A stretch of 64,000 nt of DNA. Source: an uncultured bacterium. Lineage in GTDB: Bacteria > Verrucomicrobiota > Lentisphaeria > Victivallales > UBA1829. Each line of letters opens with the position of its first letter. Position 1 is the first letter of the stretch. The stretch covers positions 1-64,000 of the forward strand of contig CASFTV010000003.1 of NCBI GenBank assembly GCA_949297765.1, written 5' to 3'. A model generated the notes under the pieces. That model saw nothing but the letters and a program-made list of their open reading frames with translations, did not search any database and had not been told where the DNA came from. Positions 43,761 through 62,329 of this stretch are shown here, one piece after another. The position numbers and the translations under genes were made by a program.

Positions 43761-44123
43761 TCAGCCGGCGGAAGAAATGGAGCGTCCTCCCTTGATTTTT
43801 GCGATTTTCCGGTCGCCGCAGAGAATCTCCATCTGGACCATTTCGCCGCTCCAGGAAAGGAGGAGGCGCAGGCGGTCGCCCGGAGCAACCGGAGAAAAGA
43901 ACTTGGTGCGGGAGAGCGTCTTCAGCGGAAACGGAGTTCCGGAAGCCAGCTCCATGAAAAGCTCCATGATCTGAATCTGGCAGACTCCGGGCAGAGTCGG
44001 CTCTCCGGGGAAATGCCCCTGGAATCCGGGGAAATCGGGGGGCAGAACGATCTCTCCTTCGGCGCAGCCCTCGCCCGTCGAGAGGAGTTTCAAATGATTC
44101 CGAATTGCATCACAAACTTTCAT
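43761..44123 (-). CDS. ApeI/FabZ-like hotdog dehydratase subunit, 120 aa
   Basis: The protein is a single hotdog domain of the 3-hydroxyacyl-ACP dehydratase type, with 'GFQGHFPGEPTLPGVCQI' placing the catalytic histidine at residue 37. In FabZ the glutamate of the active site follows the PGV segment ('PGVLQIE'); here that position is Gln51. Catalysis may therefore need an acidic residue from a partner hotdog, for which the ApeP-like domain of the radical SAM fusion is a candidate. It is the last gene of the minus-strand cluster, and its ATG overlaps the stop of the MMPL gene (ATGA). The frame extends upstream to 44297, but AAGGAAG before 44123 fixes the start. Confidence 0.8.
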   Translation of the reverse strand: MKVCDAIRNHLKLLSTGEGCAEGEIVLPPDFPGFQGHFPGEPTLPGVCQIQIMELFMELASGTPFPLKTLSRTKFFSPVAPGDRLRLLLSWSGEMVQMEILCGDRKIAKIKGGRSISSAG

Positions 44124-47047
44124 TTGTCCATCTTCCTTTCGATCGCCCGGAGAATCAGGCGATATCCGTATTTCCGGTTGTCCAGAACGACCTTCGAGGG
44201 GATTCCGTTCCGGTAGGCGTAGTATCGGACCCGGGCGGCCGCCGATCCGTTCCGGAAAACGGTTTTCTCCCGCAGGACCGAATGGCGAAAAATCCATCTG
44301 GCGGAAGGCGACTCGCAGACCACTCGATCCGCCCCTCCCCTTTTCACGCTTCCCGGGTCCGGCTCGTTGTGCAGGTGAACTGCGGCGATATCATCGAGAA
44401 TCGCCCGGGCGATCTCGGGTTCTCGTCCGTTCCATCGTTCGGAGGGAAAGAGTTCCCGGGAGTCGAGAGAGTGTTCCGTCCCGGAAACGTCGAAGATCTT
44501 CATTCCGGCGGGAGAAAGAGCAACCGCACCGATGGTTCCTTTGTCCCGGTCGACCCGGATCACGCCGAGTGCGGAAATCCGGAAGAACGGAAATTCCATC
44601 ACAATCGACGCCTCCTGCGTGAAGACCGACGGAGCAGAAACGGGGATTTTTTCCGGCATTTCGTATTCAAACGGATCCGACGCGCACGAGCAGAGAAGCA
44701 TTCCCCCCGCCACTCCGCAGAGAAGCGGAAGAAGAGCGCGGCGCCCTCCCCCGGTGATCCGTTTCCATGCGGGCAGGACAAACACGCCGGTGATCCATGC
44801 GGCGGCGATTCCGACAATCAGCGTGATTCCGGCATCCCGAAGCATCGGATGGCGGGTGAAAATCACCGTGGCGCCCCCCGCGGCGGAGGTCACGGCGGAG
44901 AGCGTTACGGCGTTGAACACGCCGCTGTCGAGCGTTCCCCGCTTCTTCAGCTCATGCAGGACAAAAATTCCGTAATCGACCGAAAGTCCGCAAAGAACGA
45001 TGGATGCAATCAGGACCGAAAGATTGACATTTTTCCCCGTCACGGCAAAGAACGCCCCGGTCACCGTCAGGCTCGTCAGCACCGGAAGAAGCGCAAGCAG
45101 GGCATCCCGGAACGAGCGGAAATAAACGATCGTCAGCAGGACCACTCCTGCCAGAGCGAGCATGCCGAGCGGTAGAATTCCGCTCATCACATCGGAGGAC
45201 ATCCGTTCCGCAAGGCCGTTCCGCGAAAGAATCATCGCCTCGGGACTCAGCGAACGGACCTTCGAACAATTCTCCGGAGTATCGGGAAAGAAGACGGCCG
45301 CCGTGACACTTCCGTTTTTTTCCTCCAGAAGACGGCGGAAAATCGGAGCAAAGACATCCGGCAGCTTCTCCGGAGGATTCTCCAGTCCGCGGTTGATTTC
45401 GTCAAAGAACGGCTGGAAGAAGCGGTCGCCGAGCGGGGATCGGGCAAGGCGCTGCCGCATCTGTTCAAGGCCGCCCTCCGCACGCAGACGCCGCCACTGG
45501 GCAAGATGTTCCGCCCGTTTCTCCGCGGACGGCCAGAGATCGAACGCGGAAAACAGCGGCATATTCGCCTTGCTCCGGAGAATGGCGGCAAGAGTCTCCG
45601 CGGACCGCTCCAGTTCCGGTCGGGATTCCGACTGAAGCAGCAGAACCGCAGGCTGGCGTCCGGAGAGAAAGCGGGCGTTCTGAAACGCCTCCTCTTCGGC
45701 GAATTCCTGCGGAGAGACATCGAACTGGCGCACATCCGGATTCACATTCAGGAACGGCAGGGCAAGCAGGCACAGGACCAGCGCCGCACACCAGCATCCG
45801 AGAACGATCCGCGGCGCACGTTCCGGGATCCGGGACACATGAAAACGGTGTTCCATCCGGCGGCCGCCCGCCAGAAACGCGGGAAGGAAAAGAAGAGTCA
45901 ACAGAAGACTCAGCAGAAGACTTCCGCCGGCGAACAGCCCGAACTGACGGCATCCCTCCGTCCGCGAAAACAGAAACAGCGCAAATCCCGTCACCGAGGT
46001 CAGCGCGCCGAGAGAGAGGGCAGGAAGCAGATGCTTCAGCCGCAGAAAACGTCCTTTCCCGGTCATGGCCGCATACACATGGATTCCGTAATCCACGGCA
46101 AGGCTGACCACGATTCCCCCCATTCCTGCGATGAACAGCAGCGTTTCCCGGAACAGCAGCGTCATGGCGGCAAGGACAAGAGTCGATGCCAGAACCGGAA
46201 TCAGCGGAATCAGGAAACTGCGCAGGTCACAGCGGTAGAAAACCAGAAACAGAAGAGCAAACAGCAGAGTCGATGTCAGACAGACAATTTTCACATCCTC
46301 CTTCAGCACGCTCTCGTTGCAGACCGCGCGCCGGTGGGCGCTGACGATGCTGCAGACCGCACCTCCGGGAATCTCTCCCAGAACCGAACGGATGGAATCC
46401 AGCAGCTGAGCCGACGAAGCGGGATCCGCCGCGGAAACCGGGGTTTTGAGCAGCATCATCGCCGCCGTCTCGTCTTCGGAAACCAGCCAGGGATACTTGA
46501 GACTGACCGACATTCCGGAAAGAGACCGGAACTCCTCCAGTTTCCGGAAGATCGACGCGATTCCGCCGAACGGATCCAGACGCAGCAGTTCACTTCTTCC
46601 GATTCCGGCGGGCGTCATGAGCCGGCGGTAAACGTTCTGTGCCGCTTTTTCCGGATCGGTCTGCGGCACGGGAACGATCTGGGGAAGAGCGCGCGCCGTC
46701 TCCCGCATGGATTCCGGGAAATCTCCCGCCGTGATTCTGAAATCGACCGACTCCACCAGAGGCAGGGCGCGGAGTCTTTCCGCAAGCGCGTCCATATATT
46801 CGCCCAGTCCGGAATCCGCGAAAGATCGTCCGTCGGGGAGACGGAACACGAGCGCGACCTGGTTGAACATTCCGCTCCGGACGACCGTGCGGAACGTCTT
46901 TGCGGAAACGGAGCCGTCCGGCAGCATCCGGGAGATGTCCGAGGAGAAGTGTCCGGCTGCGATGGCCGCCGCACTCAGCAGGACCAGTCCGCCCAGAATC
47001 AGCCGGACCGCCACCGCATGACGGGCGGAACGCAGAATCAGATGCAT
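44120..47047 (-). CDS. MMPL/RND-type exporter fused to a DUF3261-like lipoprotein domain, about 975 aa
   Basis: The first 770 residues form an RND/MMPL exporter of the APE type: an N-terminal helix, a large periplasmic loop and two six-helix blocks with 'SLAVDYGIHVYAAMTGKGR' and 'CGLSVDYGIFVLHELKKRG'. The remaining 200 residues begin 'LLPLLCGVAGGMLLCSCASD', a lipoprotein-like signal with a lipobox inside the chain, and continue into a beta-rich DUF3261-like domain. In APE clusters the DUF3261 lipoprotein is normally a separate gene. Starts at 47080 and 47047 are both possible; neither has a good ribosome binding site, and I chose 47047 because it just clears lolA. It should move the lipid product across the inner membrane. 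Confidence 0.85.
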   Translation of the reverse strand: MHLILRSARHAVAVRLILGGLVLLSAAAIAAGHFSSDISRMLPDGSVSAKTFRTVVRSGMFNQVALVFRLPDGRSFADSGLGEYMDALAERLRALPLVESVDFRITAGDFPESMRETARALPQIVPVPQTDPEKAAQNVYRRLMTPAGIGRSELLRLDPFGGIASIFRKLEEFRSLSGMSVSLKYPWLVSEDETAAMMLLKTPVSAADPASSAQLLDSIRSVLGEIPGGAVCSIVSAHRRAVCNESVLKEDVKIVCLTSTLLFALLFLVFYRCDLRSFLIPLIPVLASTLVLAAMTLLFRETLLFIAGMGGIVVSLAVDYGIHVYAAMTGKGRFLRLKHLLPALSLGALTSVTGFALFLFSRTEGCRQFGLFAGGSLLLSLLLTLLFLPAFLAGGRRMEHRFHVSRIPERAPRIVLGCWCAALVLCLLALPFLNVNPDVRQFDVSPQEFAEEEAFQNARFLSGRQPAVLLLQSESRPELERSAETLAAILRSKANMPLFSAFDLWPSAEKRAEHLAQWRRLRAEGGLEQMRQRLARSPLGDRFFQPFFDEINRGLENPPEKLPDVFAPIFRRLLEEKNGSVTAAVFFPDTPENCSKVRSLSPEAMILSRNGLAERMSSDVMSGILPLGMLALAGVVLLTIVYFRSFRDALLALLPVLTSLTVTGAFFAVTGKNVNLSVLIASIVLCGLSVDYGIFVLHELKKRGTLDSGVFNAVTLSAVTSAAGGATVIFTRHPMLRDAGITLIVGIAAAWITGVFVLPAWKRITGGGRRALLPLLCGVAGGMLLCSCASDPFEYEMPEKIPVSAPSVFTQEASIVMEFPFFRISALGVIRVDRDKGTIGAVALSPAGMKIFDVSGTEHSLDSRELFPSERWNGREPEIARAILDDIAAVHLHNEPDPGSVKRGGADRVVCESPSARWIFRHSVLREKTVFRNGSAAARVRYYAYRNGIPSKVVLDNRKYGYRLILRAIERKMDK

Positions 47048-47058
47048 CAGACACGCTG

Positions 47059-47691
47059 TTATTTTGCTCCGGCACGCCATGAGGATGAGGGGATTTCCTG
47101 ATTCAAACGAAGGTTGAAAAACCGGATTCCGGTCACATCTCCGCTGTGTTCGGTGATCCGGACGCGGGTGATATGGGAGTAATCCGGAGCGGTTTCGAAT
47201 TCCAGTTCCCGGATCAGAGCGGATGCGGGGTTCTCTTTCCGCGGCGTCAGGCGCAGATGGTGATCGCCGAGGGGGGTGATGTCGAACTGGCCCGCCATCG
47301 CATCGAAATTTCCCGAAAAATAGGAGGCCATCGACGATGCAAGGATTTTCAATGCGGGATGCTTGGAAACATCAAGTTTCAGGACCGATCCCGATTCTCC
47401 GTCCCATTGGGTGAGACGGTCGCCGTCGATGATGCAGACATAGCGGATCGGATCGTTGACGCGCCATGCCATCCGTCCGCCCTTGTCGAGCGCCAGTTCG
47501 CCCCGGATCGTCAGCGAGTGGCGAATGGAGACAATCGTTTTCACCTGCTCGAAATCGGCGGAAAGAGTCCGGACCTTTCCCATTCCGGCGCGGATGTTCG
47601 CGAGAATTTCACCGGAATCCGCCCCATGCAGCGCGGCAAGGAGCGCAAAGAACAGAAACACGGTCACACCTGCGGATCGTCCGGCACGCAT
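47059..47691 (-). CDS. LolA-like outer-membrane lipid/lipoprotein carrier, 210 aa
   Basis: An N-terminal signal peptide ('VTVFLFFALLAALHGADS') is followed by a LolA-type half-barrel: 'VRTLSADFEQVKTIVSIRHSLTIRGELALDKGGRMAWRV' and 'YVCIIDGDRLTQWD' fit the family. In aryl-polyene clusters a LolA paralogue accompanies the MMPL exporter and probably carries the lipid-linked product through the periplasm. It overlaps the radical SAM gene by 28 bases, so translation is coupled. This is probably a dedicated paralogue and not the housekeeping LolA. Confidence 0.85.
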   Translation of the reverse strand: MRAGRSAGVTVFLFFALLAALHGADSGEILANIRAGMGKVRTLSADFEQVKTIVSIRHSLTIRGELALDKGGRMAWRVNDPIRYVCIIDGDRLTQWDGESGSVLKLDVSKHPALKILASSMASYFSGNFDAMAGQFDITPLGDHHLRLTPRKENPASALIRELEFETAPDYSHITRVRITEHSGDVTGIRFFNLRLNQEIPSSSWRAGAK

Positions 47692-49118
47692 AGTTTCAAC
47701 TCGCCTTCAGCCCGGAGCGCGTCATCGGCTCCTTTGATTTGAAATTCGATCATATACCACGGGGGAAATTCCGACACGGTCCGGCAGGAGGCGATCACCT
47801 GTTCGCCCGCCCGGATCGGCATCCGGCATTCGAACCGGTTGATTTCCGCCAGCATGCCTTTCCGGATCGTCCCGGGGAAGAGAAATCCGTTGAGTGCGGC
47901 AACGGCCTGTGCGGCCAGTTCCGGAATGGCGGCGTTGTCGAGAACGCCTTCCGCATTGAGAAAGATGTTGTCCGGCTTGATCTCTGCCAGCACGTCGCCC
48001 CCGGCGTCTGTAACGCGCAGCAGGCTGGTCACCATCGCCACCGGCTTCCGGTGCGGGATGAGTTCATCCGCAGAAACGGGAAGAGAAATGATCTGCGCCT
48101 GTTTCGAAGCATTTTTCCAGCAGGTCGGATCGGCGGCGAGATAATCGCCGGTCATCTGCCATGCGGTGCCGCGGCAGCCGTAGCAGTGGTCGATGTTTTC
48201 GCAGGAGCGGCACGGTTCTTTGATGTACTGGCGGTAATTGCGGAGACGGTGGAGAATCCGGCTTTCCGCGAGGATTTCCCGGAGCGGTCTTTCGCGGATC
48301 GAGCCGATTTTCTCATCCAGCCCCACACACGGGATCACATCGCCGTGGCTGTTCACGACGCAGGAATAGCGATGGCGGAAACACTTCTGCCCGACCAGCG
48401 GCGGCTGGGGAATCCATTCCCGTCCGAATTCGCGGTCGATGCGCACAATCTCCCGGAAGACCGCCTCCACGCGGACGGGATCCGGCAGCAGCGACTGATG
48501 TTCCAGCAGGCGGCCCTGCGGCGTAATGCACTCAAAATAGGGTTCGATTCCCCGGTCCCGCAGCCAGCGCCAGATCTCGGGAGCCTCGTCAATGTTGATG
48601 GAGGAAAGAACCGTCGCCGCGCAGAGCATTTTTTCTTTCCCGGCGTATCCCGCCTCGCGGAGCATCCGGAGAGCCTCCAGAGCGGTTTTCAGGGACCCGG
48701 TCCGTCCTGTAAGCCGGTCGTGGACGTCCGGTTTGAACGTGTTGAGCTTGACGACGACACGGCAGTTCCGGGCAAGAAAGAAATTCGCATGCGCCGGCGT
48801 CATCAGCGCTCCGTTGGTGAAGATTTCCGCCCCCATGCCCAGCGAAGCGATGAAGTCGATCATCCCGTGCAGTTCCGGATAGACCAGCGGTTCTCCGCCG
48901 AGAATGACGATTTTGCGTGCGCCGAGCTCCCGCGCCTGGGAGATCGCCCCGCGGATCTCCTCCGCGCTCATTTCCGACGAATAATCCATGTTCCCGTCCA
49001 CCGCGTAGCAGTAGGGACAGCGGTAGTTGCAGCGGCGGGTGAATTCGATCTCCATGGAAAGGAGATGTCCCGGTTTCACCGCCTGAATTTCCTCGTCGGA
49101 ATAATCGAACAGATTCAT
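47664..49118 (-). CDS. Radical SAM/SPASM enzyme fused to an ApeP-like hotdog domain, 484 aa
   Basis: 'EFTRRCNYRCPYCYAVDG' supplies the CxxxCxxC cluster motif (Cys30, 34, 37) of radical SAM enzymes, and 'IVILGGEPLVYPEL' the GGEP motif. 'KCFRHRYSCVV', 'VIPCVGLDEK' and 'CRSCENIDHCYGC' give a SPASM/twitch domain for further Fe-S clusters (about 240-335). From residue 353 a second domain begins 'LIPHRKPVAMVTSLL' and continues to 'PELAAQAVAALNG'. This is the pattern of ApeP-type hotdog 'dehydratases', with the glutamate at residue 400 kept but no GHFPG histidine. The gene sits between the AMP ligase and LolA genes. The SPASM part may modify the polyene or its starter; the substrate is unknown. Confidence 0.82.
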   Translation of the reverse strand: MNLFDYSDEEIQAVKPGHLLSMEIEFTRRCNYRCPYCYAVDGNMDYSSEMSAEEIRGAISQARELGARKIVILGGEPLVYPELHGMIDFIASLGMGAEIFTNGALMTPAHANFFLARNCRVVVKLNTFKPDVHDRLTGRTGSLKTALEALRMLREAGYAGKEKMLCAATVLSSINIDEAPEIWRWLRDRGIEPYFECITPQGRLLEHQSLLPDPVRVEAVFREIVRIDREFGREWIPQPPLVGQKCFRHRYSCVVNSHGDVIPCVGLDEKIGSIRERPLREILAESRILHRLRNYRQYIKEPCRSCENIDHCYGCRGTAWQMTGDYLAADPTCWKNASKQAQIISLPVSADELIPHRKPVAMVTSLLRVTDAGGDVLAEIKPDNIFLNAEGVLDNAAIPELAAQAVAALNGFLFPGTIRKGMLAEINRFECRMPIRAGEQVIASCRTVSEFPPWYMIEFQIKGADDALRAEGELKLCVPDDPQV

Positions 49119-49124
49119 AACACC

Positions 49125-50426
49125 TCACATCCGGCAGTGATGTTTCCGCAGGTCCAGAAAACGGACCGGCTTCCGCGACACGGAGAAAATCTGCCGGCGC
49201 GCCTCCTCCAGCGAAACCTCGCGGACCGGAATGTTCAGACGGCATTTGGCTTTCAGCCGGGCCGCCAGAGCCTCCGTTGAACTGCCCGGTTCCCGGAGAG
49301 CGACAATAACCTCGACGTGATCGGAAAGGTCCTCCCCCGTCGCGACAACGTAATATTCCGCCACCTCCGGCGAAATGTCGAGAACCGAATTCAGCACGCG
49401 CGGATAGAGCGTTGTTCCGCGGCATTTCAGCATCTGCGCCCGGCGGCCGAGAATCGGTCCGAGCCGCGGAGAGAACCGTCCGCAGGCGCACGGCTCATGG
49501 GTCAGGAAACTGATATCGCCCGTCTGGAAGCGGATCAGCGGCATTCCGGTGATCCGCAGCGGCGTCACAACCACCTCTCCGATCTCTCCGTCGGGCAGCG
49601 GATTGCCTTTCTCGTCGAGGATCTCGACAATGGCAAGATCGGGAATCAGATGGCCGCCGCAGGTGGCGGTGCATTCGCAGAAACTGGAGACGATCTCCGA
49701 CGACGCATAAGTCGAATGCACCGGAACGCCCCACACGTCGGCGAGCTGCGCGCCGAGTCCGGAAAGTTTGAGCTGCTCGTCCCGGACCGGTTCTCCGATG
49801 CAGATCAGCCGCCGCACGCTGGACAGATCGGCGTTCCTCGCCCGCGCCTCCAGTCCGAGATGGCGCAGGAAGGACGGCACGCCGACCACGGCGGTCGGAC
49901 GCAGATTCCGCATCACCTGCAGATGACTTTCAATGCTGTTGAGTCCGTTCCGGATCGCGGCCGCGCCGAGGGCGCGCACTCCGAGATAATATGCCATTCC
50001 CGCGACAAAGCAGCGGTCGAGCGTGCAGGTCAGCAGGACGCGGTCCTCCCGGGTGAGCCCGGCGGCGTGAAAACAGCGCAGCTCGTTGTATGCGAGACGC
50101 TTCATATCGTTTCCGGTATAGGCGATCCGGCACGGTTCCCCGGTGGTTCCGGAGGAGAAAACCACATCCTCCACATCGCTCCAGGGAGCCGCCAGGAAAG
50201 CCTCCGGATCGGCAGCGAGATGATCCTTGGAAGTTGTCGGCAGTTCTCCGAGACGGTTCAGCGGAAAATGTTCCACCTCAATTTCCTTCAGCGTCTTCCG
50301 GTACCACGGAGAGTGTTTCCTGCAGTACGCCAGATGCTCCCGCAGATACCGCTCCTGAATGGAGTGCAGAGCGGAGAGCGGCAGGAAATCGTCGGACGGC
50401 TCAAACTTGAAAGAATCCATGCTCAT
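49125..50426 (-). CDS. PaaK-type AMP-dependent acyl/aryl ligase, 433 aa
   Basis: 'DVVFSSGTTGEPCRIAYTG' is the adenylate P-loop. 'VVGVPSFLRHLG', 'RRLICIGEPV', 'HSTYASSEI' and 'GMPLIRFQTGDISFL' follow the phenylacetate-CoA ligase family, and 'CACGRFSPRLGPILGR' lies before the C-terminal domain. It should activate a carboxylic acid as an adenylate and pass it to CoA or to the neighbouring ACP. In this cluster it is the best candidate for loading the starter unit. The ATG at 50426 overlaps the stop of the acyltransferase gene (ATGA). Confidence 0.88.
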   Translation of the reverse strand: MSMDSFKFEPSDDFLPLSALHSIQERYLREHLAYCRKHSPWYRKTLKEIEVEHFPLNRLGELPTTSKDHLAADPEAFLAAPWSDVEDVVFSSGTTGEPCRIAYTGNDMKRLAYNELRCFHAAGLTREDRVLLTCTLDRCFVAGMAYYLGVRALGAAAIRNGLNSIESHLQVMRNLRPTAVVGVPSFLRHLGLEARARNADLSSVRRLICIGEPVRDEQLKLSGLGAQLADVWGVPVHSTYASSEIVSSFCECTATCGGHLIPDLAIVEILDEKGNPLPDGEIGEVVVTPLRITGMPLIRFQTGDISFLTHEPCACGRFSPRLGPILGRRAQMLKCRGTTLYPRVLNSVLDISPEVAEYYVVATGEDLSDHVEVIVALREPGSSTEALAARLKAKCRLNIPVREVSLEEARRQIFSVSRKPVRFLDLRKHHCRM

Positions 50427-51163
50427 ACCCCTTCCACATCCATCTTCAGACTCTGTTCATAGATGATGCTCCGCACCATGTTTTTCAGCTGGAACGGCGG
50501 AGTCTCCCGGACGATTTTCTGTTCAATGCGCGGCAGTTTGCAGATGCGGATCCGCGCCGGATGCATCCGGAAATCACGGCTGGGAGCGTTTTCATTTCCG
50601 GAGATCACCACAGGGACCAGTTTGCAGTCCAGATCTTTGGCGATCCGGAAAAAGGTTCCGTGGAACTGTCCCATGACGGGGCTTCCGGAGCGGGTGCCTT
50701 CGGGAAAGACCATCACGGGGACATTGCGGGCGATGAGTTCCGCAGTCCGCTCTTTTGCCTCCTCATACGAGAGAGCGGTGATGTCGAGATATCCTCCGGC
50801 ACGGGCGAAAACGCCGAAAAAGGGAAGACGCATCGGCCAGCGGTTCACCACCTGGGCGGGCGGACGCAGAGTTGTCGCCGCCACCAGAAACGGATCCGAG
50901 GAAGAGCGGTGGTTGAAAATATAAATACCGCCGTCCGTCGGCTCTCCGGAAAGGTTGCGGTAGCGGATGCGGAGATACGGGAAACAGCCGATCCGGATGA
51001 TCGTCTTTCCATACCACAGGATAAAAAAGCGGACCGCCTCCTGCATCCGGGCGCGGCTGAAACAGTTCAACAACAGGGAAAACAGAAAAAAGGGCAGCGC
51101 GACGACGCAGTAAAGAACCGTCACCAGCAGACATTGCGCATAGACGGGCAGTGAAATATCCAT
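50423..51163 (-). CDS. PlsC-family 1-acylglycerol-phosphate-type acyltransferase, 246 aa
   Basis: An N-terminal membrane helix ('LLVTVLYCVVALPFFLFSLLL') is followed by 'IFNHRSSSDPFL' (HX4D catalytic motif) and 'VMVFPEGTRSG' (motif III). These are diagnostic of glycerolipid acyltransferases. In aryl-polyene clusters, acyltransferases of this type are thought to attach the polyene to a lipid anchor. The start at 51163 has AGGAGTGAG directly upstream, one base after the ACP gene; a longer frame to 51235 overlaps the ACP. Confidence 0.9.
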   Translation of the reverse strand: MDISLPVYAQCLLVTVLYCVVALPFFLFSLLLNCFSRARMQEAVRFFILWYGKTIIRIGCFPYLRIRYRNLSGEPTDGGIYIFNHRSSSDPFLVAATTLRPPAQVVNRWPMRLPFFGVFARAGGYLDITALSYEEAKERTAELIARNVPVMVFPEGTRSGSPVMGQFHGTFFRIAKDLDCKLVPVVISGNENAPSRDFRMHPARIRICKLPRIEQKIVRETPPFQLKNMVRSIIYEQSLKMDVEGV

Positions 51164-51164
51164 C

Positions 51165-51446
51165 TCACTCCTGTTTTGCCGGAGCTTCTCCTTCGCGAAG
51201 CCGGGCTTCCATCTTTTCGAAGAAGTTGTAGACATCGCCGAGCGTCACGATTTTGCGGATCTCTTCATTCTGCCGGAGGGAGACTCCGAATTTGCGCTGG
51301 AGTCCGATCATCAGATCCACCATGTCGAGACTGTCGAGACCGAGATCCTTGAAGATCTCCTTTTCCGGACTCAGCTCTTCCGGCGGGACTTCGAGCATCT
51401 CGGTAAACGTATTGTTGACGGCCGCAATAATCTCTTCTCGTGTCAT
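51165..51446 (-). CDS. Acyl carrier protein, 93 aa
   Basis: 'DLGLDSLDMVDLMIGLQRKFG' carries the phosphopantetheine serine (Ser39) in the DSL motif, and the small acidic four-helix outline fits ACPs of type II systems. The C-terminus is extended by a Glu/Ala-rich tail. It lies between the ketosynthase and acyltransferase genes and is the only carrier protein in the cluster, whereas APE clusters generally have two. A phosphopantetheinyl transferase gene is not in the window. Confidence 0.93.
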   Translation of the reverse strand: MTREEIIAAVNNTFTEMLEVPPEELSPEKEIFKDLGLDSLDMVDLMIGLQRKFGVSLRQNEEIRKIVTLGDVYNFFEKMEARLREGEAPAKQE

Positions 51447-51486: not shown

Positions 51487-52716
51487 CTATTCACAATACC
51501 GGGAGCAGAGTAATGTAGCATTGATTCCGCCAAAAGCAAAAGAATTTTTCAGGAAAAAGTCAAATTCGTGCGGACGGATTTCCCGGACCAGATCCATGCC
51601 CGAGCACTCCTCCGCGGGATGCTCCAGATTCAGAGTCGGCAGCAGTTCCGAGCGCGCCATCATCTCCAGCGACGCGATCAGTTCGATTCCGCCCGACGCG
51701 CCCAGCGTATGACCGAGATGTCCCTTCAGGCTGCTGACGGGAACACTTTCACCGAAGAACATCCGGAGAGCGGCGGCTTCCTCGCGGTCTCCCTGAATCG
51801 TCGATGTGGCGTGCGCGTTCACATAGCCGATGCGGGACGGCTCCAGTTCCGCATCCCGGCAGACCAGTTCCAGACAGCGGAGAATGGCGGAGGAGTCCGA
51901 CTGACTCAGACTTGCTCCGGACGCACAGGTTGCATATCCGCGAATCTCTCCGAGGATGACGGCCTTCCGTTTCCTCGCGTGTTCCAGGCTTTCCAGCACC
52001 ACGATTCCGGCTCCTTCGCCGGTGATGAGTCCGCGCCGGTCCGCATCGAACGGACGCGAGGCCTTCTCCGGAGCGGAACGGTCGAATCCTCCGGATGCCT
52101 CGATCAATTCAAAGGAAAACGGCACTTCCGGCGCCAGTTCGTCCGCGCCTCCGCAAAGGACCACATCCTGAGTTCCCGCGGCGATCAGGTCCCGTCCGAG
52201 TCCGATCGCCTGCAGCGCCGATGCGCACGCGGCGGAGGGCGACAGCACGCATCCCCGGATGCCGAACATGTTCGCCACATTGAACGCCGCCGTATGAGCC
52301 ACGCTTTTGAAAAACTGCATTGCCGACATCTCGTCCCGCCGTCCCCCCAGCAGCAGATGGTAGGCCTCCGAAATGCTGGCGGACCCGCCGATCGTCGATC
52401 CGATCACGCATCCGCACCGTCCCCCCGTCAGCAGCTCTCCGGGAATCCGGGCCTGCTCCACGGCGGAGCGGGCGGCAAGCGCGGAAAACAGGCCGAGCCG
52501 TCCCATGGAGCGCCGCTGTGAGCGGGGAATCGTCTTTTCCATTTCCGCCGTCAGGTTCACCGGAGCGGCGATCGGAGGGGGTTCCGTCCCGCTCCACTCC
52601 TCCATGATCCGCACACCCGATTCTCCGGCGCGCAGCCGTCTGTACAGCTCCCCCGGAGAAGATCCGAGCGAGCTGATCACGCCGACACCTGTCACAACAA
52701 CCCGTTTTCCATTCAT
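51487..52716 (-). CDS. FabF-type beta-ketoacyl-ACP synthase, 409 aa
   Basis: Thiolase-fold condensing enzyme: 'SAACASALQAIGLG' holds the catalytic cysteine (Cys164), 'VNAHATSTIQGDREEA' the first histidine and 'KGHLGHTLGASGGIEL' the second, giving a full Cys-His-His triad. It extends the chain by two carbons per round using malonyl-ACP. No second ketosynthase or chain-length factor is present in the cluster. The gene ends two bases before the FAD oxidoreductase gene's stop region begins, and the intergenic gap to the ACP is 40 bases, the largest break in this part. Confidence 0.94.
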   Translation of the reverse strand: MNGKRVVVTGVGVISSLGSSPGELYRRLRAGESGVRIMEEWSGTEPPPIAAPVNLTAEMEKTIPRSQRRSMGRLGLFSALAARSAVEQARIPGELLTGGRCGCVIGSTIGGSASISEAYHLLLGGRRDEMSAMQFFKSVAHTAAFNVANMFGIRGCVLSPSAACASALQAIGLGRDLIAAGTQDVVLCGGADELAPEVPFSFELIEASGGFDRSAPEKASRPFDADRRGLITGEGAGIVVLESLEHARKRKAVILGEIRGYATCASGASLSQSDSSAILRCLELVCRDAELEPSRIGYVNAHATSTIQGDREEAAALRMFFGESVPVSSLKGHLGHTLGASGGIELIASLEMMARSELLPTLNLEHPAEECSGMDLVREIRPHEFDFFLKNSFAFGGINATLLCSRYCE

Positions 52717-52718
52717 GA

Positions 52719-54206
52719 TTATCGGTTCTCCAGCACCCGGTGAATCATCCGCATGTAAAGATCTTCTCCGACGATCTTCCGCCAGACGAGGAATGCGGAG
52801 AGCATCGCCCCCATCGCACCGGGCAGCAGCGCATTCTGACCGGCCACATAGAAATTGCGGATGGGCAGTTTTCCGAAGACATTGTTCTGTCCGAGTTTCT
52901 GCCGGATCCCGTATGCGGATCCGAACGGGGAAAGATAGTCGCGATAGGTGAGCATGGACGCGGCGTCAAGAATCCGCAGTTTTCCCCGGAAATCGGGATA
53001 GATGCGGTAGATTTTCTCCTCCAGATCCGCCGACTTTCTCCGTTTATACGCATAATAGGCCGGCGGCCGGCGGCCCGTCCGCGAGGCTTCCCATTCGGCA
53101 GTTTCCGCCCGGAAGACATTCTGGAATGCCGTGACCGTGTTGTAACGGTTTCCGTCGAGACCGCGTTCCCGGGTGAGCATAATCCCGGTGGCCGTGGCAT
53201 CCGGATGGGCGGGCGACATGATCCGGTCCACCTTCGAGGTCGAGAAATGGGAGGTAAGTTCCTCCCGGAACGCCTCCGACTCCCGTTCAAGCACGGCGAA
53301 GATCGTAAAGAAGCCGGCGCCGTCCTCGAATTCGCGGACACGGTCGGCAAAAATCCCGTTCCGGAACCGTTCGGGGAGAAGACGGAGGATCTCCAGCGGA
53401 TGCATTGTCATCACACAGTCCTGGAATTCCACCGTACTTCCGTCTGTGAGCCGCATCCGATGGCAGCGCAGATGGTCCACGTCGAGACACTCGGCAAGGG
53501 TGCAGTTCGTCCGGATTTCAATGCCGAGTTCCTCCGCCCGCGTCCGGAACGCCGAGACAAACGCTCCACCGCTTCCGTCCACCCGGACCAGATCGTCCAT
53601 CAGCCCGAAACTGACCCGGCAGTGGTTCGCCAGAGAGATCTCCCCGCACGGTGTGCCATGACAGGTTGTGAATCCCGCCAGAATGCTGCGGACCTCATCC
53701 GGCACATTCAGGGAATCCAGATAGTCCTTCAGCAGAATGGAATCCTCTTTCTGGTACGGCAGACCGCTGAATCCGGCGTCCTCCAGATTGAAAAGGCGCG
53801 TATCGTAAAAGATCCGTTTCTGATCCTCGAAATAGCGGCGGATTCCCTCTTTCCGGTCGGGATATCGCTCCTCCAGCACACGGCGGATGTTGTCGCCGCC
53901 GTGGGGGAAATCGAACAGGAGGTCCTTGTCCGCCAGATAGATTTTCGTGGGAATGGAGTAACAGGAGAGCGGGGGATGGAACTCCAGCATCTTCAGCATG
54001 TCGCCCATGCTTCCGTCGAGCCGGGTGGTGAAATGGAATCCGGTGTCGAACGGGATGCCTTCCCGGTGAAAGCGCTGCATGCTCCCGCCGATCACGGAAC
54101 TTTTCTCCAGCAGGAGAATCCGGAATCCGCCGGAGGCCAGCAGAATGCTGATCGTCATTCCGGTGATGCCGCTCCCGAGGACGACAAAATCATATTTCCT
54201 ATTCAA
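52719..54206 (-). CDS. CrtI/phytoene-dehydrogenase-like FAD oxidoreductase, 495 aa, TTG start
   Basis: 'DFVVLGSGITGMTISILLASGG' is the FAD Rossmann GxGxxG motif. 'VIGGSMQRFHREGIPFDTGFHF' resembles carotenoid desaturase/isomerase and retinol-saturase relatives, and the C-terminal 'IRNFYVAGQNALLPGAMGAMLSAF' is the second FAD-contact segment of that family. In this cluster it could desaturate, saturate or isomerise the polyene chain. The frame is open far upstream, but the TTG at 54206 lies just before the conserved Rossmann motif and has GGGAGAG upstream. The preceding fabG stop is 15 bases away. Confidence 0.85.
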   Translation of the reverse strand: MNRKYDFVVLGSGITGMTISILLASGGFRILLLEKSSVIGGSMQRFHREGIPFDTGFHFTTRLDGSMGDMLKMLEFHPPLSCYSIPTKIYLADKDLLFDFPHGGDNIRRVLEERYPDRKEGIRRYFEDQKRIFYDTRLFNLEDAGFSGLPYQKEDSILLKDYLDSLNVPDEVRSILAGFTTCHGTPCGEISLANHCRVSFGLMDDLVRVDGSGGAFVSAFRTRAEELGIEIRTNCTLAECLDVDHLRCHRMRLTDGSTVEFQDCVMTMHPLEILRLLPERFRNGIFADRVREFEDGAGFFTIFAVLERESEAFREELTSHFSTSKVDRIMSPAHPDATATGIMLTRERGLDGNRYNTVTAFQNVFRAETAEWEASRTGRRPPAYYAYKRRKSADLEEKIYRIYPDFRGKLRILDAASMLTYRDYLSPFGSAYGIRQKLGQNNVFGKLPIRNFYVAGQNALLPGAMGAMLSAFLVWRKIVGEDLYMRMIHRVLENR

Positions 54207-54220
54207 AAGCACTCTCCCGG

Positions 54221-54949
54221 TCAGATCACAAGTCCGCCGTTGACGGCGAGGACCTGTCCATGAATATATCGGCTGTCGGGACCGCAGAGGAAGCTGACCG
54301 CTCCGGCGACCTCGTCCGGGAGCCCCGCCCGGTTCAGCGGAATCAGCGGCAGGATTTTCTCTTTCGGCAGATCGGCGGTCATCGGAGTTTCGATGAATCC
54401 GGGCGCGACGGCGTTCACCAGAATTCCTTTTCTCCCGACCTCCCGGGCGAGCGCCTTGACGGCGCCGATCAGAGCGGCTTTGGACGCGGAGTAATTCACC
54501 TGTCCCGCCTGTCCCGCCTGTCCGGAAGCGCTGCTGATCACGACGATCCGGCCGTTCCGGCTGGCAAACATTCCCATCAGAAGCGGCTGCACCGTATTGT
54601 AGAATCCGTCCAGATTGGTCCGGATCACGGAATCCCACTCCTGCTCCGACATGAACACGAACAAATTGTCTCTTGCGATTCCGGCATTGTAGACGAGGAC
54701 CTCCGGAGCGGAGTCGCCGAAACATCCGAGCAGGGCATCCGAAGCGGCTTTGCGGTCTGCGACGTCGAACGCCAGAGTGCGGCAGGAACGTCCGAGCGCC
54801 TCCGCGGACTTCCGCAGCTTCTCCAGCCGGGAAACGTCATGACTGCAGGTGAGGACGAGGTCGAATCCGTCCGCAGCGAGGCGTTCCGCGACAGCGCATC
54901 CGATTCCGCCGGCGGCGCCGATCACCAAAGCGGTTTTCCGGGAATTCAT
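54221..54949 (-). CDS. FabG-type 3-oxoacyl-ACP reductase, 242 aa
   Basis: Short-chain dehydrogenase with 'VIGAAGGIGCAVAERLA' (NADPH loop), 'LVYNAGIARD' (NAG motif), serine in 'VISSAS' and the catalytic 'YSASK'. It would reduce the beta-keto intermediate after each condensation. A 9-base unit is repeated in tandem around 54499-54516, giving GQAGQAGQ next to the catalytic loop, where most family members have a shorter GQxGQ. Its start overlaps the end of the lipoprotein gene by four bases. Confidence 0.93.
   Translation of the reverse strand: MNSRKTALVIGAAGGIGCAVAERLAADGFDLVLTCSHDVSRLEKLRKSAEALGRSCRTLAFDVADRKAASDALLGCFGDSAPEVLVYNAGIARDNLFVFMSEQEWDSVIRTNLDGFYNTVQPLLMGMFASRNGRIVVISSASGQAGQAGQVNYSASKAALIGAVKALAREVGRKGILVNAVAPGFIETPMTADLPKEKILPLIPLNRAGLPDEVAGAVSFLCGPDSRYIHGQVLAVNGGLVI
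54499..54516 (-). repeat. 9-bp tandem repeat in fabG
   Basis: Two exact 9-base units followed by a partial third encode GQA-GQA-G near the SDR catalytic loop. In frame. Confidence 0.75.
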
Positions 54950-61417: not shown

Positions 61418-62329
61418 ATGTCTGAAATTCTGACTCACAATCAAATTCTGAATCTTCTTCCGTATACGGACAGAATGGTTCTGCTCGACCGTGTCTGTCT
61501 GGACGACCCGAAAAAAGCGGTCGGTCTGAAAAGCGTCACGATGAACGAATGGTATTTCCCGGGCCATTTTCCGCATCATCCGATTGTTCCCGGAGTCATT
61601 CAGGTGGAATCCATGTTCCAGCTGGCGGAGCTTGCCGTGTGGAAGCGTCTGGACCCGAAGCGGGAGGGGGATCTTTACATCAAGGAACTGAACAAGGTCA
61701 AATTCCGTCGGCCGAACAACCCGGGAGACCGCATTCTTCTGTCCGCGGAAATCACCGGAGAGACCTCGGATTCCGCCACGGTGACGGCGACCGCCACCAA
61801 CAACTCCGGAGTTACCTGCCAGGCTCAGATGACCCTTTCGGTCCGTCCCAGAATTCAGCCGGAGATGCCCGAATTCAACGAGTTTGACAAATGCGATTCC
61901 TGTCCGATGGATGTGGAGAAAATCGCCTCCCTCATTCCCCATCGCTACCCGTTCCTGTTTGTCGATTATGTGGCGAAGATTGATGGACCGCATGTCACCG
62001 CGGTCAAGAATGTGTCGGCGGAAGAACCGGCGTTCCGGCGGTATGCGGACGGCTATTCCGTGCTGACCGGCACCGTCCAGCCGGAAATCCTGGCGCAGGC
62101 GGGGGCGATCATCATGCTCTCCAACGAATCCAACCGCGGGAAACTCGCCTATTTCATGGCAATCGACCACGCGGAGTTTTACAGACCGGTACTTCCCGGC
62201 GATCAGATGGTCCTCGAAGTGGAGATTCCGGAAACAAAATCCCGTTTCGGAAAAGGAGAAGGACGCATCAAGATCGGCGGAAAGGATGTGGCGTACATCA
62301 ATATGATGTTCGCTCTTGTGGATCCCTGA
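61418..62329 (+). CDS. fabZ: Tandem FabZ-like double hotdog dehydratase, 303 aa
   Basis: Two hotdog domains in one chain. Domain 1 (1-145) has 'YFPGHFPHHPIVPGVIQVESM' with the catalytic pair His50 and Glu64. Domain 2 (about 160-303) starts 'IASLIPHRYPFLFVDYV' like FabZ, but the GHFPG motif is replaced by 'YADGYSVLTGTVQPEILAQ', keeping the glutamate and losing the histidine. The protein probably folds as a pseudo-dimer with one standard active site. It lies 19 bases after lpxC, linking fatty acid and lipid A synthesis. Confidence 0.9.
   Translation: MSEILTHNQILNLLPYTDRMVLLDRVCLDDPKKAVGLKSVTMNEWYFPGHFPHHPIVPGVIQVESMFQLAELAVWKRLDPKREGDLYIKELNKVKFRRPNNPGDRILLSAEITGETSDSATVTATATNNSGVTCQAQMTLSVRPRIQPEMPEFNEFDKCDSCPMDVEKIASLIPHRYPFLFVDYVAKIDGPHVTAVKNVSAEEPAFRRYADGYSVLTGTVQPEILAQAGAIIMLSNESNRGKLAYFMAIDHAEFYRPVLPGDQMVLEVEIPETKSRFGKGEGRIKIGGKDVAYINMMFALVDP

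Follow-up and report, generated by a model that had tools for sequence, protein, structure and literature searches.

A radical SAM/SPASM enzyme fused to an ApeP-type hotdog domain in putative polyene gene clusters of anaerobic bacteria

The ApeI:P dehydratase of aryl polyene biosynthesis (PDB 6qsr; PMC8041823) is a heterodimer of two hotdog types that share one active site, with the Glu on the ApeP side and the His on the ApeI side. The same two hotdog types are found at the locus described here, and the aryl polyene clusters (PMC8041823) share with it a ketosynthase (KS), an acyl carrier protein (ACP), a ligase, LolA, and an MMPL exporter. ApeI and ApeP are separate chains in the known complex, whereas here a radical SAM/SPASM enzyme carries ApeP as its C-terminal domain; in Acinetobacter baumannii, it is ApeI that is fused, to ApeH (PMC8041823). 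Unlike the aryl polyene clusters of ApeI:P, the clusters with the fusion also encode a CrtI-like FAD protein and, in most cases, radical SAM enzymes that bind cobalamin.

The closest unfused relatives of the radical half are the kuste3343-type enzymes (Rattray 2009, PMC2649909; Javidpour 2016, PMC4790861), which have seven SPASM cysteines and the same ligase and B12 radical SAM neighbors but are 368 to 376 residues long and lack the hotdog. The ladderane-candidate clusters of anammox bacteria also differ in having a stand-alone FabZ and no ApeI, LolA, or thioesterase. Non-anammox clusters annotated as "ladderane" by antiSMASH in Desulfobacterota, Omnitrophota, Verrucomicrobiota, and Planctomycetota (PMC9902471), phyla in which fusions occur as well, contain the same gene types, but the fusion is not described in that paper. 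PqqE, SkfB, SuiB, AhbD, and NirJ share the SPASM radical SAM fold and the cysteine pattern, but the fusion scores far below every NCBIfam equivalog cutoff (the best being AhbD, at 120 of 500 bits) and has no peptide or heme context. Our literature search, in which subscription journals were thinly covered, found no description of a protein joining radical SAM and hotdog domains. What appears to be new here is the fusion architecture, the clusters themselves having been noticed before.

The fusion lies in a 64,000-nucleotide stretch (here called the window) of a contig from an uncultured bacterium of the Victivallales. It is encoded at positions 47664 to 49118, as originally predicted, on the minus strand, which the prediction had left unsaid, and comprises 484 residues with an ATG start and no internal stops. 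The radical SAM core occupies residues 24 to 164 (48627 to 49049, minus strand; Pfam PF04055, E value of 1.2e-24). All three cysteines of its CxxxCxxC motif (C30, C34, and C37) are present in 81 of 81 aligned proteins, and G74, G75, E76, and P77 of the GGEP SAM-site motif are invariant in the alignment of fusions. The SPASM domain follows at residues 241 to 334 (48117 to 48398, minus strand; PF13186, E value of 9.9e-10 at 246 to 307), with cysteines 246, 264, 303, 306, 312, 315, and 333, again all conserved in 81/81 aligned proteins.

The hotdog, at residues 346 to 480 (47679 to 48083, minus strand), is more divergent. The C-terminal 140 residues alone gave no significant Pfam match, with FabZ as the best NCBIfam hit (E = 0.075), and the window's own sequence is too divergent to match the Pfam ApeP-like family PF22817. 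That family is matched by 20 of 31 hotdog homologues (E ≤ 0.1; best E value, 4.7e-7), and a profile built from the 31 homologues had ApeP of the ApeI:P heterocomplex (6qsr_B) as its top PDB hit (E value of 1.6e-18), with many FabZ chains next. An AlphaFold2 model of the whole protein (pLDDT, 91.4; pTM, 0.87) places a hotdog at about residues 363 to 477, arranged as strand-strand-helix (397 to 413)-four strands. Foldseek matched the N-terminal part of the model to PqqE, SkfB, SuiB, and anSME and the C-terminal part to FabZ and ApeP 6qsr_B (rmsd, 2.1). By profile and model, the C-terminal domain is thus a hotdog fold nearest ApeP, and the central claim of the original prediction, that a radical SAM/SPASM enzyme and an ApeP-type hotdog share a single frame, is borne out by the open reading frame, Pfam, the hotdog profile, and the separate structural matches of the two parts.

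An artefact of assembly or gene calling, or a chimera, can be ruled out because the full-length fusion recurs in independent genomes of many phyla. It is found in about 28 of 388 genomes of the window's phylum, at 40 to 66% identity, and scanning GTDB genomes with a profile as guide yielded 233 related loci; a single-sequence query of the genome contigs had found none, and it was the alignment query that recovered them. The best 80 of the 233 loci were retained, and nearly all of these span both halves. By their record titles, these 80 belong to Lentisphaerota, Kiritimatiellota, Verrucomicrobiota, Omnitrophota, Nitrospirota, Desulfobacterota/Geobacteraceae, Brocadiaceae, and Deferribacteres, among others; most are from metagenome bins, and lone odd assignments (e.g., Bacteroidales or Pseudomonadota) should be read with caution. 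Victivallis vadensis and Oligosphaera ethanolica are cultured carriers. The expectation that the architecture had not been described is in line with the literature searched, but it is not rare; it is widespread among anaerobic phyla.

All neighboring genes assigned to the cluster are on the minus strand. Upstream of the fusion in the direction of transcription lie a FabG-like SDR ketoreductase (54221 to 54949; assigned from sequence and conserved cluster position), a CrtI/phytoene-desaturase-like FAD protein (52719 to 54212, start inferred), a beta-ketoacyl synthase (51487 to 52716; PF00109/PF02801), an acyl carrier protein (51165 to 51446; PF00550, E value of 6e-10), an LPLAT-type acyltransferase (50423 to 51163, start inferred; PF01553, E value of 1.7e-17), and an AMP-forming acyl/aryl ligase nearest to FlxY in NCBIfam (49125 to 50426). 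Downstream are a LolA-like periplasmic carrier nearest to LolA2_flexi (47059 to 47691), an MMPL-family exporter that ends in a DUF3261 domain (44120 to 47080; Pfam), and a 120-residue ApeI-like hotdog, the proposed dehydratase partner (43761 to 44123; PF22818, E value of 5e-8). DUF3261 and the exporter are separate genes in other phyla. The remaining usual genes, encoding a thioesterase (TE), a second KS, a KS-like protein, a B12 radical SAM enzyme, and a glycosyltransferase, are on another contig of the same genome, where this second half of the cluster occupies L161:7073-11642. The overall order, SDR-FAD-KS-ACP-AT-FlxY-fusion-LolA-MMPL-ApeI-TE-KS2-KSx-B12 rSAM-GT2, is nearly invariant across Lentisphaerota, Nitrospirota, Omnitrophota, Desulfobacterota and relatives, and Planctomycetota. 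The aryl polyene/flexirubin gene set of KS, ACP, ligase, dehydratase pair, LolA, MMPL exporter, and ketoreductase is present. Membership in the flexirubin clusters proper was rejected, as the ligase reaches 391 of the 520 bits needed for FlxY and the LolA-like protein 70.7 of the 125 bits needed for LolA2_flexi, both below the NCBIfam cutoffs.

The two hotdogs of the cluster are complementary in their catalytic residues. The fused domain carries an ELAAQ motif (47907 to 47921, minus strand) with Glu400, which corresponds to the catalytic Glu of FabZ/ApeP, and Gln404. Both residues are kept in 80/80 fusions that reach this point, the remaining row being a cut contig, and the aligned fusions do not conserve a His where FabZ has one. 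The ApeI-like partners have the catalytic FabZ His in 51/51 cases, whereas just 7/51 have a Glu where FabZ has one; the model of the 120-residue partner had ApeI 6qsr_A as its top Foldseek match (rmsd, 1.6). When the fused clusters were searched with the hotdog profile, no further ApeP-like protein came up. Since Glu and His are split between the fusion and its partner and the fused hotdog is the sole ApeP-like domain of the cluster, it most plausibly represents the ApeP subunit and is probably a working half of the dehydratase and not merely a dock. The predicted dehydratase role of ApeI and the fused ApeP domain is well supported by alignments and models, although the seven Glu-bearing partners could be complete homodimers, which counts against a composite site. 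Elsewhere in the window, at 61418 to 62329 and directly after an LpxC-like gene, is a 303-residue protein with two FabZ-like repeats carrying GHF and LIPHR motifs.

Taken together with the cluster context, the sequences and models lead us to consider it probable that the fusion serves a type II FAS/PKS-like polyene cluster of anaerobes as a bifunctional enzyme, combining the ApeP half of a heterodimeric dehydratase with a tethered radical tailoring activity. The fused hotdog would supply Glu400 and the separate ApeI-like protein the His of one composite active site, and the pair would dehydrate 3-hydroxyacyl-ACP to give the conjugated double bonds of a polyene. The fusion would hold the radical SAM/SPASM enzyme at the dehydratase, where it could modify the same ACP-bound chain, or a starter loaded by the ligase, in an oxygen-independent radical step. 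We infer heterodimer formation, dehydratase activity, the substrate, and the radical reaction.

The original prediction, which is supported in part, had suggested that the hotdog could dock the radical enzyme on an ACP-bound chain, with radical chemistry on a carrier-linked polyene. Its premise of a carrier-bound substrate is likely to be correct, because a planctomycete relative (L183:9405-10799, plus strand) carries the same radical SAM/SPASM enzyme with a C-terminal acyl carrier protein (PP-binding, 8.4e-10) in place of the hotdog. A catalytically idle hotdog whose sole task is to bring ACP-bound chains to the radical enzyme, which would be close to that proposal, would also fit the lack of a conserved His at the FabZ position, as it would the ACP fused instead in L183. 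We nevertheless regard docking alone as improbable, as Glu400 and Gln404, the former catalytic, are invariant, as 44 of the 51 ApeI partners lack the Glu, and as the hotdog persists where the radical core or the entire radical enzyme is gone, so that docking of that enzyme cannot be its sole use.

The nearest unfused relatives of the radical half come from Planctomycetota. Three of them (L181, L182, and L186), of 368 to 376 residues, are 40 to 44% identical to it over about 335 residues, and their genes adjoin a PaaK/FlxY-like ligase and a B12 radical SAM gene. The gene order at L186 corresponds to that of kuste3335 to kuste3351 of Kuenenia as tabulated in PMC4790861, which suggests that L186 is Kuenenia; its 368-residue relative, which has no hotdog, is at the kuste3343 position, between the ligase (3344) and the B12 radical SAM gene (3342). 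The anammox FabZ of L182 has both His and Glu, and no ApeP would therefore be needed there. In the tree, all fused forms are on one side of a branch from the unfused ones (UFBoot, 89; SH-aLRT, 82), as they are in 91% of the bootstrap trees, and a single origin of the fusion is favored from these sequences. The clusters of Kuenenia, Desulfotalea, and Geobacter are syntenic, and Desulfotalea psychrophila, despite its syntenic cluster, has no ladderanes (PMC2649909); likewise, no ladderane product is reported for the lineages that bear the fusion. We put forward only tentatively the wider view that a widespread, undescribed protein, both radical enzyme and dehydratase subunit, builds oxygen-independent radical tailoring into an anaerobic polyene elongation complex and that its unfused anammox relatives act equivalently on carrier-bound chains toward ladderanes, though not in the ring-forming step.

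Another reading is that the radical half and the FlxY-like ligase next to it jointly make or activate a starter, and that the fusion merely ensures co-location. The radical domain may act on the free starter acid because the ligase is the adjoining gene, which counts against our preferred explanation; the two genes adjoin in the unfused anammox clusters as well, and in a genus with the hotdog only, the ligase is outside the cluster, with a copy elsewhere in the genome. However, the ligase is still in place in clusters whose fusion has lost its radical motif (L043, L044, L239, and L240), and the fusions to ApeP and to ACP point to carrier-bound substrates. We therefore find this reading possible but rather unlikely, and prefer a radical step at the dehydratase.

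Natural variants dissect the fusion. In five radical-dead fusions (L043:7022-8284, L044:7299-8591, L185:6778-8289, L239:9300-10670, and L240:8564-9832), the CxxxCxxC loop is deleted, while the seven SPASM cysteines, Glu400, and Gln404 are kept. In L043, L044, and L185, identity to intact fusions is 18 to 32% in the core (48% among intact pairs), 36 to 52% in SPASM (62%), and 30 to 40% in the hotdog (37%). Intact and radical-dead forms occur side by side in two genera (G321 versus G701 and G702 in genus g7; G092 versus G016 in genus g11). The sequences suggest at least two independent losses, the exact number being uncertain due to long branches. Concurrent loss of the B12 radical SAM gene with the fused radical motif can be ruled out, as B12b is still present in L043 and L240 and is missing from several intact clusters.

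Within the window's family, a further reduction is seen in genus g4, where 13 genomes match the hotdog profile and about twelve species have only the hotdog. All nine loci examined encode a hotdog that has neither radical SAM nor SPASM attached, in 8/9 between the acyltransferase and LolA. These stand-alone ApeP hotdogs, of about 161 to 164 residues, take the fusion's place (L233, L234, L235, L236, L237, L238, L241, L242, L243, and L244); in two hotdog-only cases, an apparently long open reading frame results from an in-frame extension that is not homologous. A search of seven hotdog-only genomes turned up no close radical SAM relative. Loss of the ligase can be ruled out, as five of the seven have a copy elsewhere and a sixth a partial one.

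The intact SPASM cysteines in 5/5 radical-dead proteins might suggest that the reason for the fusion is a structural or electron-transfer role of SPASM shared with the dehydratase. We think this very improbable, as the hotdog-only relatives have no SPASM and the known ApeI:P functions without it. The radical-dead and hotdog-only relatives instead indicate that the radical and dehydratase roles are separable, and the most plausible view is that the cluster needs the hotdog as its dehydratase half but can do without the radical enzyme, which would tailor the same carrier-bound chain. Judging from the fusion, the radical step would probably work with the dehydratase, on ACP-bound chains, which bears on the enzymes behind ladderane lipid synthesis and on the products of similar clusters in many anaerobic phyla. 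As intact, radical-dead, and hotdog-only versions exist within one bacterial family, a comparison of lipids or pigments can reveal what the radical step contributes. The fused homologues are also an alternative source of material to kuste3342 and kuste3343, which were undetectable in Escherichia coli in an earlier test (PMC4790861). Finally, genome G701, whose cluster copy is radical-dead, has an intact stand-alone radical enzyme on another contig (L253:7290-8531); this may reflect a division of labor or contamination, the genome being rated about 6% contaminated.
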